This document shows positions 16,181-22,059 of a DNA stretch of 64,000 nucleotides, one piece after another. Under the pieces are notes generated by a model. That model worked only from the letters and a program-made list of their open reading frames with translations, ran no database searches and was not told the DNA's origin. Source of the stretch: Flavobacteriaceae bacterium. GTDB lineage: Bacteria; Bacteroidota; Bacteroidia; Flavobacteriales; Flavobacteriaceae. Made by a program: the position numbers and the translations under genes. Location: contig JAHEKV010000004.1 of NCBI GenBank assembly GCA_024638165.1, positions 286,703 to 350,702 on the forward strand, written 5' to 3'. The first letter of the stretch is position 1; every line of letters starts with the position of its first letter.

Positions 16181-16761
16181 GATAGTTTAAGAAAGTTGTT
16201 AAGTAGTTGTTCTCCAGCTTCACCACTTCTTTCAGGATGAAATTGCACACCTATGAAATTATTATTGGCCAGTGCAGCGCTGTAAGGAATCGCATAATCG
16301 GCAAGCGCAATCGTTTGTTCGCTTACCTGTGCGTAATAGGAATGAACAAAATAGAATTGTTCATTATGGAGACGCTCAAATAAGGGGTGATTGTTAGGTT
16401 TTACTGGTGCCCACCCTACTGCGGGAACTTTAAGATTTACATTAAATTTTGCAACATTCGTGTCAAAAATTTGAAGACCTTCTGTTGGTCCTTCTTCGGT
16501 TTGTTTGCATAGCAGTTGCATTCCTAAACAGATACCTAGGACGGGTTGGTTTAATGTTTTTATAAAATCTATTAAACCTGTTTGGATAAGATGTGATTTA
16601 GCAGCCTTCGCATGTCCTACTCCTGGAAAAATAACGTGTGTTGCACTTTGAATTTCAGATGAGTCTGAGGTTACAACTGTTTTAACCCCAAGGCGTTCAA
16701 AAGCAAATCGTACACTCTGAACGTTCCCAGCACCATAATCGATGATTGCTACTTGCTTCAT
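16177..16761 (-). CDS. hisH: Imidazole glycerol phosphate synthase, glutamine amidotransferase subunit
   Basis: This 194-residue class I glutaminase supplies ammonia to HisF. The catalytic triad is visible: Cys in [11 protein letters not shown] near residue 79, and His and Glu in [13 protein letters not shown] near residue 176. The N-terminus [22 protein letters not shown] is canonical. It overlaps hisB by 4 bases upstream and hisA by 4 bases downstream. In this operon hisA separates it from its partner hisF, a normal order in many bacteria. Confidence 0.97.
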
Positions 16762-17888
16762 AGACTACCTTTTGTACTTGGAAGAATCAAATGCTCTGTA
16801 TCTCTTTTCTTTGCCATTTTAATCGCTTTAGCAAAAGCTTTAAAGAGACCTTCAATCTTATGATGTTCATTAAAACCGCTGGCCTTGAGGTTTAAATTGG
16901 CTTTGGCACCATCGGCAAACGATTTGAAAAAGTGAAAGAACATTTCTGTAGGCATATCACCTATTTTCTCTCTTTTAAAATTCGCATCCCACATCAACCA
17001 AGCTCTACCCCCAAAATCAATAGCTGCTTGGGCTAGTGCGTCATCCATCGGGAGACAGTAACCGTATCGTTCTACTCCTAATTTATTACCCAGTGCTTTC
17101 GCGAAAGCCTCCCCAAGAGCAATTCCGGTGTCTTCTATGGTATGATGTTCATCGATATGTAAATCGCCTTTGCATTTCACAAATAAATCAAGCTGTCCAT
17201 GACGAGCAATCTGTTCTAACATATGATCGAAAAATCCTAGCCCTGTATGAATTTCAGATTCGCCAGTTCCCTCTAAGTTAAGCGTGATTTCAATATCTGT
17301 TTCTTTAGTTTTTCGCTGATGAGTAATCTTGCGGTCGAGTTTCTTCAAGAAATCGGTAATCGAATTCCAGTCATCACATGCTAAGGCAATATGCTTATTT
17401 AGTTCTTGAAGAGATTCATTCAATTCATCCTTACCTGATTGACTAGCATTAAACAGAAATGATTTGATCCCTAGATTTTTCCCTAATTCTACATCAGTGT
17501 ATCGATCCCCAATGACAAAGCTATTTTCGAGATCGAAACCTTGAGACATGAGATCTGTAAGCATTCCTGTCCTAGGCTTTCTGTTCGGAGAATTTTCAGA
17601 AGGAAAACTCGAATCAATAGCAATTTTTTCAAAGCTAATTCCTTCAGACTCAAAGGTACGAATCATTAGGTTTTGAACGGGCCAAAAATCTTCTGAAGGA
17701 AAAGATTCAGTACCCAGTCCATCTTGATTGGTGATTAGCACTAATTGGTAGCCTAAAATCTTATGAGCTAATTTTAAGGAGCTAATCACATTAGGAAAAA
17801 ACACTAGCTTATCAATGTGATCGATTTGATAATCAGCTGGCTCTTTTATGATCGTACCATCACGATCTACAAACAGGTATTTCTTCAT
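16758..17888 (-). CDS. hisB: Bifunctional histidinol-phosphatase / imidazoleglycerol-phosphate dehydratase
   Basis: This 376-residue fusion covers step 8 (N-terminal HAD phosphatase, about 1-165) and step 6 (IGP dehydratase, about 188-376). The HAD nucleophile motif is VDRDGT with Asp8 and Asp10, and the GDRYTD motif is at 127-132. The zinc loop of E. coli HisB (Cys/His cluster before RKP) is replaced here by SSFPSENSPNRKP, so the phosphatase half probably lacks structural zinc. The dehydratase half shows the metal-binding repeats HTGLGFFDHML, DEHHTIEDTGIALGEAF and FNEHHKIEGLFKAF. Its ATG overlaps the hisDC stop (ATGA), and its stop overlaps hisH. It complements HisDC by carrying the alternate steps of the pathway end. 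Confidence 0.96.
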   Translation of the reverse strand: MKKYLFVDRDGTIIKEPADYQIDHIDKLVFFPNVISSLKLAHKILGYQLVLITNQDGLGTESFPSEDFWPVQNLMIRTFESEGISFEKIAIDSSFPSENSPNRKPRTGMLTDLMSQGFDLENSFVIGDRYTDVELGKNLGIKSFLFNASQSGKDELNESLQELNKHIALACDDWNSITDFLKKLDRKITHQRKTKETDIEITLNLEGTGESEIHTGLGFFDHMLEQIARHGQLDLFVKCKGDLHIDEHHTIEDTGIALGEAFAKALGNKLGVERYGYCLPMDDALAQAAIDFGGRAWLMWDANFKREKIGDMPTEMFFHFFKSFADGAKANLNLKASGFNEHHKIEGLFKAFAKAIKMAKKRDTEHLILPSTKGSL

Positions 17889-20224
17889 GAATTCAATAAT
17901 TTGATAACACGCTTGTTTTCATCGGGGGTACCGACTGTAATACGGAGCATATTTTGACATCCATATTGCGAACTTCGATTTCTTACAACAATACCAGCAT
18001 CAACGAAATCTCGATATCTTTTTGACGCATCGTCGACTTGAAATAATATAAAATTAGCTTCAGACTCGTAAACCTCAGCTACCCAGCTACATTGCTTCAA
18101 TGCGATATTTAGAATTGCTCTTTGATCCTTTAGAATTTCAATTTCACTTTGAATCATTGAATCATTTGAAAGGCGATCTAAAGCTAACTCTATATTAGGG
18201 CTACTGATATTATAGGGGGGCTTAATACGATTGAGCCATCCAATAATTTTTGGATTAGCAATAGCAACTCCTAGTCGCGCACCTGCTAAGCCATAAGCCT
18301 TTGAGAGGGTTCGCACCACAATGAGGTTCTGATATTCAGTCACTACACCTACCAGGCTCTGCTCGCTAGAAAAATCAATATAAGCTTCATCAACGACTAC
18401 TAATGCATTCGTCTCTCGGATAAATCTTTGAAGTTTTTTAGAATCGAGACGTCTTCCTGTAGGATTATTAGGATTACACAAGAACACCAGTTGAGTTCTA
18501 CCACTGATCTGGCTTTCGAATACATTCCAATCTAACTCAAATTCATCATTAAGCGGCACAGTGATCAGCTCCACATCGTTCTTGTCAGCTAATACACTAT
18601 ACATTCCATAAGATGGCTTAAAAGTCAATGCATTATGCTGTTTTGGTTCAACTACTAATTGCATGATTAAATCCAATACTTCGTCGCTTCCATTTCCAAT
18701 AAAGAGTGTATTATCTTGAATTCCCCACAGCTCGGCGATACGAGCTTTTAGGGCCAATTGATAGGGATCAGGGTATCTAGTTGCTTTACCATCAAAAGGA
18801 TTTTCATTCGCATCTAACCAAATTTTAGAGATCGCATTATCTGAGAACTCACTTCTAGCCGATGAATACACCTCAGAAACCAATAAATGTCTTCTAATAT
18901 TCGCATCTATATCGTAACCTTCTGCACCTTCATCATCTTGATTATTAAGGTGCTTAAGTCGAAGAGTCACAGCATTTTCGTGGGCTTTCAACTGTTCAGC
19001 ATTCGCCATTTGTTCAACGATAGGCCCAAGGTCACGTATCCCTTGAGCGCTAACCTTCTGAAAGGTTATAGCTTTAGTATAACTGTCTAAATTGACTCCA
19101 CTATACTGTCTGGCAAATCCATTGGTGGGTAAGGTATGATTCGTCCCTGATGCATAATCACCAGCACTTTCGGGAGTAAAATTCCCTATAAATACAGAAC
19201 CAGCGTTTTTAACCAAGGCAACCATATCTTCTGGTTTTTCACTGGCAATAATGTAATGCTCTGGAGCATATAAATTGATGAATTTAGCAGCCTTTACTCG
19301 ATCCTCAAAAAGAATAACCCTACTGTTTTCTAGTGCCTTAGTCGCAATCTCTTTTCTTGGCAGGTTCCCTAATTGGATCTTAATTTCTTCTTCTATCCTT
19401 TTTAGCTTTGATATATCGGATAGAACTAATACCACTTGACTATCAGGTCCGTGCTCTGCTTGACTTAAAAGATCTGCAGCTACGAATTCGGGCATACAAG
19501 TATCATCGGCAAATACCAGTAATTCACTAGGGCCAGCAGGCATGTCTATTGCCACTCCCTGCTGTGTAGCGAATTGTTTTGCTACCGTTACAAACTGGTT
19601 ACCAGGACCAAAAATCTTATCGACCGCAGGAATAGATTGGGTACCGTTAGTTAGTGCAGCAATGGCTTGGGCACCACCAACTTTAAATAATTGGTTTACC
19701 CCACAAAGAGAAGCAGTGTAAAGAATGGCCGGGTCTACTTTGCCGAATTGATTGGGCGGAGTACATAAGGTGATTGATTCACAGCCCGCGATCTTTGCAG
19801 GAATAGCCAACATAAGAACGGTAGAAAATAATGGCGCCGAGCCACCAGGAATATAAATTCCCACCTTTTCAATAGCTACTTTGCGTTGCTCGCAAACTAC
19901 TCCAGGCATGGTTTCAACACGTATAGGTTTGGTCTTTTGCGCCTGGTGAAAAGATTCAATATTCTGTTTTGCTTTTTGTATCGCAATTTTTAAAGTTGGA
20001 TCTACTAATTTTTCTGCTTCATCAAGCTCTTTCTTACTGATAGATAGGGTATCTAACTTGACCTTGTCAAAATTTTCGGTGTAGCCAAATAAAGCTTCAT
20101 CGCCACTATGTTTGACTTTACTAAATATCTCGCTTATTAGCGGATATAAATCCTCATAGGAGGCTGTGGGACGTTTAGTGATGTCTGCCCACTGTTCTTT
20201 ACTAGGGTTAGTGTAGGTAAGCAT
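17885..20224 (-). CDS. HisD-HisC fusion: histidinol dehydrogenase / histidinol-phosphate aminotransferase
   Basis: One uninterrupted frame of 779 residues joins two enzymes that are normally separate. HisD covers about residues 1-427, with the Gln255/His258 metal region LLSQAEHGPDS and catalytic Glu322-His323 in YAPEHY. The linker is short and acidic (NNQDDEGAEG, about 427-436). HisC covers about 437-779: YSSAR and LDANENPFD at the substrate site, NPNNPTG at 584-590, and the PLP Lys642 in TLSKAYGLAGARLG. Both halves are full length with all catalytic residues. The start ATG at 20224 lies 2 bases after the hisG stop. An extension to 20344 would overlap hisG and is rejected. There is no in-frame ATG at the linker from which HisC could start alone. 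The product does step 7 and steps 9-10. Confidence 0.93.
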   Translation of the reverse strand: MLTYTNPSKEQWADITKRPTASYEDLYPLISEIFSKVKHSGDEALFGYTENFDKVKLDTLSISKKELDEAEKLVDPTLKIAIQKAKQNIESFHQAQKTKPIRVETMPGVVCEQRKVAIEKVGIYIPGGSAPLFSTVLMLAIPAKIAGCESITLCTPPNQFGKVDPAILYTASLCGVNQLFKVGGAQAIAALTNGTQSIPAVDKIFGPGNQFVTVAKQFATQQGVAIDMPAGPSELLVFADDTCMPEFVAADLLSQAEHGPDSQVVLVLSDISKLKRIEEEIKIQLGNLPRKEIATKALENSRVILFEDRVKAAKFINLYAPEHYIIASEKPEDMVALVKNAGSVFIGNFTPESAGDYASGTNHTLPTNGFARQYSGVNLDSYTKAITFQKVSAQGIRDLGPIVEQMANAEQLKAHENAVTLRLKHLNNQDDEGAEGYDIDANIRRHLLVSEVYSSARSEFSDNAISKIWLDANENPFDGKATRYPDPYQLALKARIAELWGIQDNTLFIGNGSDEVLDLIMQLVVEPKQHNALTFKPSYGMYSVLADKNDVELITVPLNDEFELDWNVFESQISGRTQLVFLCNPNNPTGRRLDSKKLQRFIRETNALVVVDEAYIDFSSEQSLVGVVTEYQNLIVVRTLSKAYGLAGARLGVAIANPKIIGWLNRIKPPYNISSPNIELALDRLSNDSMIQSEIEILKDQRAILNIALKQCSWVAEVYESEANFILFQVDDASKRYRDFVDAGIVVRNRSSQYGCQNMLRITVGTPDENKRVIKLLNS

Positions 20225-20226
20225 AT

Positions 20227-21081
20227 TTATAAGAACATCTTTTCTATAGAACTCACCAAAATACCTTCTGCTCCTGCACTTTTGAGCTTTTCGATCATCG
20301 GCCAAAACCGTTTTTCTTCGATTACCGTGTGCACCGAAACCCATCCAGACTCTGCGAGTGGTAAAACAGTAGGACTTTTCATCCCTGGTAGTAAGGATAA
20401 AACCTCTTGTAAATTGGCCTGTTGAACATTCATTAATACATATTTATGCTCTCTTGCTCTCAATACTCCCCTTAATCTAAATAAGAGTTCTTGAAAAGTT
20501 TCATTGGATTGATCAAGTTTCGGAGAAACCGCAAGTACAGCTTCACTTTTTAATAAGGTTTCAACCTCCTTAAGGTTGTTCTTGAAAAGAGTACTACCAC
20601 TACTCACGATATCACAAATAGCTTCAGATAATCCGATATTCGGTGCGATCTCAACACTACCATTAATGACGTGTATATCAGCATTGATATTGTTATTATC
20701 TAGAAAGGAACGAAGTGTATTTGGATACGAAGTGGCAATCCTCTTATTTTCGAGATCCTGAAGTCCATTATATTCTGTACCCTTTGGTACCGCAATACAA
20801 ACGCGACATTTTGAAAACTTCAATCTTTCAACGCTCTCGATATGATTGCCTTTTTCGATAAGTAAATTTTCACCAATTATCGCTAGGTCTACTACGCCGT
20901 CTTGTAAATATTTAGGAATATCTCCATTGCGCAAATAGTATACTTCTAACGCAAAGTTAGTTGCCGGAGCCTTTAATTGATCCTTGCCATTATTGATAGA
21001 AATCCCAGCTTCTTTCAGTAATTTGATCGAATCGTCGTGAAGTCTTCCGCTTTTTTGAATTGCAATTTTTAGTCGTTCCAT
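20227..21081 (-). CDS. hisG: ATP phosphoribosyltransferase, long form
   Basis: This 284-residue enzyme catalyses the first committed step: ATP plus PRPP gives phosphoribosyl-ATP. The catalytic part (about 1-205) has IAIQKSGRLHDDS, DLAIIGENLL and CDIVSSGSTLF (PRPP loop). The C-terminal ferredoxin-like regulatory domain (about 210-284, from YVLMNVQQANLQEVLSLLPG to ILVSSIEKM) is present. This is therefore the long HisG that works without HisZ and is feedback-inhibited by histidine. It is the first gene of the his operon. Its leader carries a His-codon peptide and an intrinsic terminator, so enzyme inhibition and attenuation act at the same step. Confidence 0.97.
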   Translation of the reverse strand: MERLKIAIQKSGRLHDDSIKLLKEAGISINNGKDQLKAPATNFALEVYYLRNGDIPKYLQDGVVDLAIIGENLLIEKGNHIESVERLKFSKCRVCIAVPKGTEYNGLQDLENKRIATSYPNTLRSFLDNNNINADIHVINGSVEIAPNIGLSEAICDIVSSGSTLFKNNLKEVETLLKSEAVLAVSPKLDQSNETFQELLFRLRGVLRAREHKYVLMNVQQANLQEVLSLLPGMKSPTVLPLAESGWVSVHTVIEEKRFWPMIEKLKSAGAEGILVSSIEKMFL

Positions 21082-21090
21082 GATTGATTT

Positions 21091-21128
21091 AAATAAAAAA
21101 TCCGTTTAAACACAAGGCTCAAACGGAT
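21091..21128 (-). terminator. Intrinsic terminator of the his attenuator
   Basis: On the minus strand an 8-bp perfect stem, ATCCGTTT pairing with AAACGGAT (21100-21107 with 21121-21128), closes a 13-base loop. It is followed at once by a T-rich tract (TTTTTATTT). It lies between the leader peptide stop and the hisG ATG, the position expected of an attenuator. Just upstream, at 21130-21148, GTATGTAAA can pair imperfectly with TTTATAC. That hairpin runs into the terminator arm and is a candidate competing structure. Confidence 0.8.
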
Positions 21129-21153
21129 CGTATAAAGTATTTACATACCCAAT

Positions 21154-21207
21154 CTATCTCGCCTGAGCGCAGTAAAATAGATGATGGTGATGCGTTGTCT
21201 TATTCAT
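21154..21207 (-). CDS. hisL: his leader peptide with four consecutive His codons
   Basis: This 17-codon ORF reads MNKTTHHHHLFYCAQAR and then TAG. The His run CAT CAC CAT CAT lies at 21181-21192. It starts 8 bases after an exact TAnnTTTG box (21216-21223) and ends 26 bases before the terminator stem, 73 bases before hisG. The arrangement promoter / His-rich peptide / terminator / hisG is that of classical transcription attenuation. When charged tRNA-His is scarce, the ribosome stalls on the His run and the terminator should fail to form. It is too short for routine gene callers. Homology to the enterobacterial hisL peptide is by function, not sequence. Confidence 0.85.
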   Translation of the reverse strand: MNKTTHHHHLFYCAQAR

Positions 21208-21215
21208 TATACTTA

Positions 21216-21223
21216 CAAAAATA
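21216..21223 (-). promoter_or_regulatory. -7 box (TATTTTTG) of the his operon
   Basis: This is an exact TAnnTTTG match, 8 nt before the leader peptide ATG. The 5' leader ahead of the peptide would be only a few bases long. No clear -33 element was seen. Confidence 0.65.
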
Positions 21224-21243
21224 AGCTTGTTTTTTATTTGTCA

Positions 21244-22059
21244 CTAATTATTACCAAGAATAATCGGCAAGCCACTTTCTCCAGAACCAACAACTACTAC
21301 TTTCGCATTCGGTGATTCTGCAAGTTTCAATGTGGCTTCGATACCTTTATCTTGAAGAATCTTGTCTGTTAATGAGGCACTTAAAATTCGGTTAGCATCT
21401 GCTTTTCCCTGCGCCTCGATGATTTGTCTTTGAGCTTCCTTTTCTGCAGTTACTAATCTAAACTCGTATTCTAAAGCCGATTGTTCTTGCTTTAACTTGC
21501 GCTCAATAGCTTCACGAATCGTTGGCGGTAGGGTAACGTCTCTGACCAGAATTTCGTTCAGTTGAATGTATTGATCTTCCACAATCATTTTGGTTTCCTC
21601 AAAAATTTCCTGTTGAATAGCATCTCTTTTAGAAGAGTATAGTTGCTCTGGAGTATACCTACCAACCACCGATCTTGCTGCAGATCTAATAGCAGGAAGT
21701 AGGATACGATTTACGTATTGCTCACTTTTTTCTTGGTGGAGTTTACCTAGATACTCATAAATTGGCTGGTACCATGCCGATGCATCAATCTGAATTTCAA
21801 GACCATTCGAAGAAAGCACTTTCATTTTTTCAAATAGTTCTTGTTGTCTTACTTCATAAACAAATACGCGGTTCCATGGCGCTACCAAATGAAAACCTTC
21901 GCCCATAGGGGGTTGGTCAGTAACTACTCCACCTGAGAAGGTTCGATAAAGCACACCTGCTCTACCAGAGCCAATGGTTATAGCAGATTTAGAAATTAAT
22001 ACAATCAGTAAGAAAAAACCTACTACACCAGGAAGTAAAAATTTTGGTAAACGTTCCAT
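21244..22059 (-). CDS. Prohibitin/SPFH (band 7) family membrane protein
   Basis: This 271-residue protein has one N-terminal membrane segment (about residues 8-27) and then a band 7/SPFH domain (about 28-210: GRAGVLYRTFSGGV, GEGFHLVAPWNRVFVYEVR, IRSAARSVVGRYTPEQLY). A coiled-coil region follows, rich in Glu, Arg and Ala (EQSALEYEFRLVTAEKEAQRQIIEAQG). It resembles prohibitins more than HflC. Such proteins form membrane rings that scaffold proteases or lipid domains. It is 12 bases downstream of fabG in the same direction. The his promoter starts right after its stop, so read-through into the his leader is possible. Confidence 0.88.
   Translation of the reverse strand: MERLPKFLLPGVVGFFLLIVLISKSAITIGSGRAGVLYRTFSGGVVTDQPPMGEGFHLVAPWNRVFVYEVRQQELFEKMKVLSSNGLEIQIDASAWYQPIYEYLGKLHQEKSEQYVNRILLPAIRSAARSVVGRYTPEQLYSSKRDAIQQEIFEETKMIVEDQYIQLNEILVRDVTLPPTIREAIERKLKQEQSALEYEFRLVTAEKEAQRQIIEAQGKADANRILSASLTDKILQDKGIEATLKLAESPNAKVVVVGSGESGLPIILGNN

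Follow-up and report, generated by a model that had tools for sequence, protein, structure and literature searches.

A predicted histidine attenuator ahead of hisG in Flavobacteriaceae and its putative near-leaderless start

The short leader that precedes hisG in the window (the whole 64,000-nucleotide stretch of DNA that was analysed, from a Flavobacteriaceae genome of 1.74 Mb that is 99% complete) is very probably a ribosome-mediated transcription attenuator of the his operon. The reading is based on the parts of the element, on their conservation, on helices that exclude each other and on where the switch falls when the leader is folded in silico; the 5′ end, the stalling of the ribosome and the response to histidine are inferred. 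Attenuation had been put forward in the original prediction for this locus, and the idea holds, as the His run is conserved and the exclusive stems covary. With regard to the features that define his/trp-type attenuators, an amino acid-rich leader ORF, an intrinsic terminator before the first gene and an antiterminator that excludes it were all found, and the freeing of the antiterminator strand by a stall and its covering by ribosome movement were found in constrained folding only.

Layout and conservation of the hisG leader

The features of the element are collected in Table 1. As had been claimed, an exact TAnnTTTG box, a 17-codon ORF with four consecutive His codons and hisG (beginning at 21081) follow one another on the minus strand. 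The box is separated by 8 bases from the ATG at 21205-21207, and region 2 of the leader is the tail of the peptide ORF including its stop. Upstream lies an SPFH-domain gene that ends at 21244. The terminator had been described as an 8-bp stem with a T tract; a hairpin with a T-rich tail is indeed present, and the stem was set too low, as 13 pairs were counted around a loop of 5. One terminator-like site was found in 21050-21300, where shuffles gave 0.1 on average. The leader RNA also folded with a lower energy than its shuffles (z -4.49, with 0 of 200 as low). A search of the window's genome with the exact pattern detected no second copy of the element.

Table 1. Features of the hisG leader in the window.
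Feature	Positions	Strand	Basis or remark
TAnnTTTG promoter box TATTTTTG	21216-21223	minus	exact consensus match
Predicted transcript start	21208-21211	minus	box position gives 21211; pyrimidine-purine step gives 21210, an A located 3 nt ahead of the ATG
Leader peptide ORF MNKTTHHHHLFYCAQAR	21154-21207	minus	17 codons and stop; His-run peptide precedes hisG in 224/242 loci
Four regulatory His codons (codons 6-9)	21181-21192	minus	translation of leader ORF
Region 1, 5′ arm of possible protector hairpin with 21152-21160	21174-21182	minus	window MFE
Region 2, strand of the antiterminator helix, GCUCAGGCG-A-GAU with a single bulged A	21156-21168	minus	pairing with region 3, covariation
Small hairpin between regions 2 and 3, in loop	21135-21150	minus	appears within antiterminator fold
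Region 3, AUCCGUUUGAGC	21117-21128	minus	pairs with region 2 in the antiterminator and with region 4 in the terminator
Intrinsic terminator, hairpin of regions 3 and 4 with a T-rich tail that reaches about 21090	21099-21129	minus	hairpin scan, covariation
hisG, first gene of presumed operon	20227-21081	minus	Pfam HisG and HisG_C

The his genes after hisG reach down to 14102 in the presumed order hisG-hisDC-hisNB-hisH-hisA-hisF-hisIE, in which hisH, hisA, hisF and hisIE were recognised from their translations and are presumably as named. HisD and HisC are fused in one in-frame ORF of 819 residues (17885-20344, minus), with Pfam Histidinol_dh at residues 57-463 and Aminotran_1_2 at residues 516-815. 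An open hisD-hisC frame is also seen in L002, of the same genus, and in L031 (MAG JM.27). A stop was found at the end of hisD in 127 of 148 loci, and the other 21 were open at the end of the stretch; three of the 20 listed are fused and the others are cut inside hisD. No such fusion is named in the excerpts of PMC8305728, among 12 of 15 places. The hisB gene (16758-17888, minus) is bifunctional, with a HAD-type phosphatase part and an IGPD part.

A short ORF in which three or more of four adjacent codons encode His was found ahead of hisG at 224 of 242 loci (145 of 149 in the family of the window, which is itself included, and 79 of 93 in other families of the same class), counts that are not independent because the loci are related and partly duplicated. 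As controls, first-order Markov shuffles and reverse strands were run through this detector, which scored 14 of 1210 and 2 of 242, respectively. A hisG match was present in 81 of 100, 79 of 148 and 87 of 198 genomes; a part of these was used, chosen partly by similarity, and the overlapping sources gave some near-duplicate rows. The 18 loci that lacked the peptide include both loci from one family of 0.6-Mb genomes (L176 and L178). A strong hairpin with a T run (score of at least 35) followed the ORF in 208 of 224 leaders and in 2 of 224 shuffles. A looser detector scored 221 of 224 leaders (145/145 in the family, 76/79 outside it) but 122 of 224 shuffles too; this setting does not discriminate, and the stricter score was therefore relied on. 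The comparison with relatives that had been proposed as a check was thus carried through, with a His run conserved across the class and stems that covary, and among the loci sampled from this class a His attenuator with the classical layout is what usually stands ahead of hisG.

Within the family most leader peptides were found to follow the pattern M-x(4-5)-HHH(H)-x5-QA(R/K/S/N)-stop. The His run and the Q position were five codons apart in 107 of 108 leaders and, in the larger family set, in 127 of 135. The 108 leaders come from 110 loci, of which the detector missed L015, where no more than two His are adjacent, and L081, where the leader lies outside the stretch that was read. The Ala codon of the peptide ending was GCG in 130 of 135 leaders compared to 12.4% of the Ala codons in the hisG genes of the family; thus, the ending is constrained as RNA, a constraint that is likely explained by pairing with the 5′ arm of the terminator. 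The leader His codons were CAT in 542 of 581 cases compared to 159 of 323 in the hisG genes of the same loci, a bias that may stem from slower decoding, from RNA pairing or from both. In L081 the his terminator is separated from hisG by some 200 bases that contain the inverted arms GAACTCATTTAGACTTTTT and AAAAAGTCTAAATGAGTTC, and this extra DNA looks like an insertion in the leader.

Exclusive pairings and the predicted position of the switch

Region 2 of the window was found to pair with region 3 through 12 pairs and one bulged A (GCUCAGGCG-A-GAU with AUCCGUUUGAGC). Region 3 takes part in both helices, so the antiterminator (2:3) and the terminator (3:4) are mutually exclusive, and both covary. 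A hairpin at 21130-21148 had been named as a candidate competitor of the terminator; the small hairpin found there does not compete and sits in the loop between the antiterminator strands. The true competitor, which had been missed, is the end of the peptide ORF (21156-21168) paired with 21117-21128.

Covariation was scored in alignment A1, which holds 31 leaders at no more than 80% identity, drawn from 37 non-redundant of 152 leaders with QAR-like ends (L122, L125, L179, L181, L197 and L226 omitted, and the window in place of L001). For the antiterminator, 90.6% of the cells were paired compared to 88.6% in shuffled alignments (1 of 500 as high) and 25.5-50.0% when the pairing was slid, and 12 cells were changed on both sides compared to 0.7 in shuffles (0 of 500). 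For the terminator, 94.3% of the cells were paired (0 of 500 shuffles as high) compared to 20.6-56.7% when slid, and 18 cells were changed on both sides compared to 3.4 in shuffles (0 of 500). Column 105, in region 3, has changed from U to C in 8 of the 31 leaders, and there its antiterminator partner (column 51) and its terminator partner (column 121) are both G. In leaders with U at column 105, column 121 is A in 21 and column 51 is A or G (10 each), so that region 2 is in part G already. An antiterminator string with an A-C mismatch (86.4% of cells paired) was dropped in favour of the version with the bulged A. RNAalifold, when run on the alignment, predicted the terminator only.

The pairing was found to persist between families in which the sequences differ strongly (e.g., GGCUUACC-type arms). 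With one leader per family (n = 35), the mean energy of region 2 with its own region 3 was -12.79 kcal/mol compared to -9.82 (sd 0.42) for permuted partners, and 0 of 5000 permutations were as low, although permutation among related leaders overstates significance; 9 of the 35 families ranked their own region 3 partner below at least 20 others. The start of region 2 was located in 67 of 76 leaders of other families by a pairing of -9 kcal/mol or better with at least 7 pairs. By this approach, region 2 was found to begin a median of 13 nt after the last His (sd 4.9; 4.1 with one leader per family, n = 28), and its distance to the stop was more variable (sd 9.2; 9.7 with one per family, n = 28). 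Since the distance to the His codons varies less than that to the stop, the register of region 2 seems to depend more on the His codons than on the stop codon. In family f27 (L139, L142, L144, L146 and L148) region 2 lies around and beyond the stop codon (CCAATAGGTGAGC), and the antiterminator is largely outside the peptide; the distance of region 2 from the His run stays similar.

Mixed support was obtained for the protector hairpin. In A1, 73.8% of its cells were paired compared to 36.6-55.6% when slid; both-side changes were matched in 0 of 500 shuffles, but the percentage paired was matched in 22 of 500 and the number of pairs with such a change in 240 of 500. Permuted partners did as well as the true ones in 0 of 5000 cases within the family set and in 829 of 5000 outside the family, where a pairing of region 1 is unsupported.

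In the folding calculations the ribosome was represented by a masked footprint, assumed to span 15 nt before and 14 nt after the first P-site base. For window transcripts truncated shortly past region 3, at three different points, the antiterminator probability was 1.00 with His6, His7 or His8 in the A site, 0.99-1.00 at His9 and 1.00 at Leu10; it dropped to 0.15-0.66 at Phe11, 0.01-0.20 at Tyr12 and 0.00 at Cys13, Gln15, Arg17 and the stop. In a coarser measure averaged over 145 family and 76 other leaders, the mean drop likewise came right after the last His, from 0.73 at that codon to 0.21 four codons later in the family and from 0.62 to 0.27 in the others; the values with no ribosome were 0.45 and 0.27, respectively. 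A clear switch (probability above 0.5 at the last His and below 0.25 at the stop) was detected in only 94 of the 145 family and 39 of the 76 other leaders, and in this measure the window was still at 0.53 at the stop. Full-length transcripts always folded into the terminator, with a masked ribosome or with none; the order and timing of transcription must therefore decide the outcome. When the window transcript was cut after region 3 and left with no ribosome, the antiterminator was preferred (probability 0.95-0.97), so that termination in the absence of translation does not fit unless region 1 pairs first.

In the mechanism that we propose, RNA polymerase would start at the TATTTTTG promoter and a ribosome would load on the AUG about 3-4 nt from the 5′ end of the RNA. 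If charged tRNA-His were scarce, the ribosome would stall at one of His codons 6-9 with its leading edge just before region 2 (21156-21168), which would pair with region 3 (21117-21128) once the latter emerged; region 3 would be sequestered from region 4, the terminator would not form, and hisG onward would be transcribed. If histidine were plentiful, the ribosome would advance and cover region 2, regions 3 and 4 would form the terminator (21099-21129), and transcription would stop. With no ribosome on the leader, region 1 may pair with the end of region 2 and so promote termination, which is the least certain step.

Other explanations of the same parts were weighed against ribosome-mediated attenuation. 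That the hairpin merely ends transcription of the SPFH gene or is a fixed partial terminator, with the His ORF incidental, would suit the closeness of that gene and the lack of any other terminator-like site in 21050-21300; we consider it very unlikely in view of a His ORF that is present at 224 of 242 loci but in about 1% of controls, the steady spacing from His to region 2, the covariation of the antiterminator and the RNA-level GCG constraint. Equally improbable, in our judgement, is a main role in trans for the peptide or for the terminated leader RNA, to which attenuation would be secondary. Such action has a precedent in peTrpL/rnTrpL of Sinorhizobium meliloti (excerpts of PMC7298713), and the conserved QAR/QAK/QAS C-terminus in the family would agree with it. 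The peptide end is, by contrast, kept at the synonymous level, which the antiterminator explains, and outside the family it is mostly different yet the RNA pairing persists; a trans role and attenuation can also coexist. Rfam, which includes the His leader family of enterobacteria, gave 0 covariance model matches in the window at gathering score, and at relaxed thresholds L10_leader and ncr1575 alone were returned for 21040-21280, both below threshold and neither a usable family. A T-box-like tRNA sensor or a protein-bound leader, toward which the better of these matches might point (L10_leader, 20.2 bits against a cut-off of 44, E 0.22, far below threshold), is scarcely credible given the empty result at gathering score and a His run that is conserved while adjacent codons vary.

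Box spacing and the predicted 5′ end

A nearly absent 5′ leader and the lack of a Shine-Dalgarno site had both been proposed as departures from the enterobacterial model. The Shine-Dalgarno site is indeed absent, and this is not by itself a departure because it is the normal state for this phylum (excerpts of PMC6847099). The nearly absent leader is retained as a prediction, made from box spacing and the bases before the ATG. In the family, the spacing between the best TAnnTTTG-like box and the peptide ATG was found to be bimodal, at 7-9 nt in 44 of 145 leaders and 17-20 nt in 52 of 145. When wider classes were used, 50 of 145 fell at 4-10 nt and 65 of 145 at 14-23 nt, compared to 6.2% and 10.1% of shuffles, and in other families the counts were 16 and 39 of 79. 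The spacing in the window is unremarkable when taken alone (3 matches in the window; 17 of 100 shuffles have at least 3), and no TTG was found at the usual -33 distance for its TATTTTTG box.

The consensus box is placed at -12 to -5 in excerpts of PMC9723704, from which the 8-nt gap in the window predicts a 5′ leader of 4 nt. Among leaders of the short type, 42 of 51 have a pyrimidine at position -4, compared to 17 of 64 of the long type, and a pyrimidine(-4)-purine(-3) step was present in 32 of 51 and 16 of 64, respectively. This step in the short type would suit a transcript start at -3. A purine at -3 alone is ambiguous because in Flavobacterium johnsoniae an A at this position also acts as a positive signal for translation (excerpts of PMC6847099).

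When mapped on a hisG tree (quick FastTree), the short and long types required 6 changes over 100 labelled rows; among 128 rows, 52 were long, 48 short and 28 ambiguous, the last being left out of this count. With ambiguous as a third state the tree needed 20 changes compared to a shuffled mean of 57.9. These few changes indicate that the spacing type runs in lineages. The trait was ambiguous in 8 of 10 rows of genus g100, which may be Flavobacterium. The HisG of the window groups with those of named Flavobacteriaceae, on which its assignment to this family is based.

Very short 5′ leaders are a minority in this phylum: excerpts of the respective papers give 5.5% leaderless in F. psychrophilum (PMC9723704), 13% of leaders at 10 nt or less in F. 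johnsoniae (PMC6847099) and about 3.7% under 10 nt in Bacteroides thetaiotaomicron (PMC7366714). On balance we think it somewhat more likely than not that in a large part of the Flavobacteriaceae, including the genus of the window, the AUG from which the his attenuator peptide is translated lies about 3 nt from the 5′ end of the transcript.

Relation to known attenuators

The hisL leader peptide of Escherichia coli and Salmonella has seven His codons. The element of the window is like hisL in its leader peptide with consecutive His codons and its exclusive antiterminator and terminator before hisG; unlike hisL, it has four His codons, no Shine-Dalgarno site, a predicted 5′ leader of 3-4 nt and no match to any Rfam family at gathering score. 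Cys-rich sORFs of mycobacteria are generally leaderless. A mycobacterial Cys-cluster sORF has been proposed as an attenuator (excerpts of PMC4633059), and the attenuated RNA of S. meliloti starts with the ATG of trpL (excerpts of PMC7298713). Both concern other amino acids and phyla, and in the window the predicted leader is 3-4 nt, not zero.

Closest to the present case are the structured 5′ elements upstream of hisG and pheA that excerpts of PMC9723704 report for Flavobacterium psychrophilum, with strong clues for leader peptide attenuation ahead of amino acid operons; the hisG element is present in other genera and has no Rfam match. The window shares with it the family of bacteria and the gene, and in those excerpts the element is given without its anatomy and the near-leaderless promoter type is not described. 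According to excerpts of PMC2965389 (2010), leader peptide systems were, to the knowledge of its authors, unshown outside Proteobacteria and Actinobacteria, their own bacillar His case aside. Excerpts of PMC8305728, on the his genes of this superphylum, mention attenuation once, for enterobacteria.

A second leader was noticed in the genome of the window itself. On contig C50 (L249:1365-1427, plus), ahead of a prephenate dehydratase gene, lies a Phe/Tyr-rich leader peptide, MNKTRFYNDFTYFNYYQLER, followed at about 1460-1482 by a AAAGTCCCG...CGGGACTTT hairpin with a T run; by eye, GGGGCUU after the stop could pair with the terminator arm, and this leader is likely a Phe/Tyr attenuator. A crude leader-peptide filter had returned nothing at seven loci of the same genome (ilvB, chorismate-binding, prephenate dehydratase and amino acid kinase genes); it has false negatives, since the prephenate dehydratase leader was then seen by eye.

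An earlier comparative study by Lopatovskaya and others (2010), cited in excerpts of PMC4833913, may already include his leaders of Bacteroidetes. Among the literature matches listed and the excerpts consulted, no his attenuator of this phylum was found to be described as near-leaderless. The His attenuator is of a kind already known; less ordinary is the predicted near-leaderless start type, which is stable by lineage in part of the family.

The design is simple, in that the last codons of the peptide ORF also serve as the antiterminator strand and the distance of region 2 from the His codons acts as a ruler for the leading edge of the ribosome. If the prediction is true, Flavobacteriaceae would hold a near-leaderless attenuator in a phylum that lacks Shine-Dalgarno sites and in which mRNAs are mostly leadered, and in related lineages the leader of this attenuator would be longer by about 10 nt, which would allow both start modes to be compared on one device. 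A near-leaderless start, if real, would provide a natural test of Shine-Dalgarno-free ribosome loading on an RNA that is read during its synthesis.
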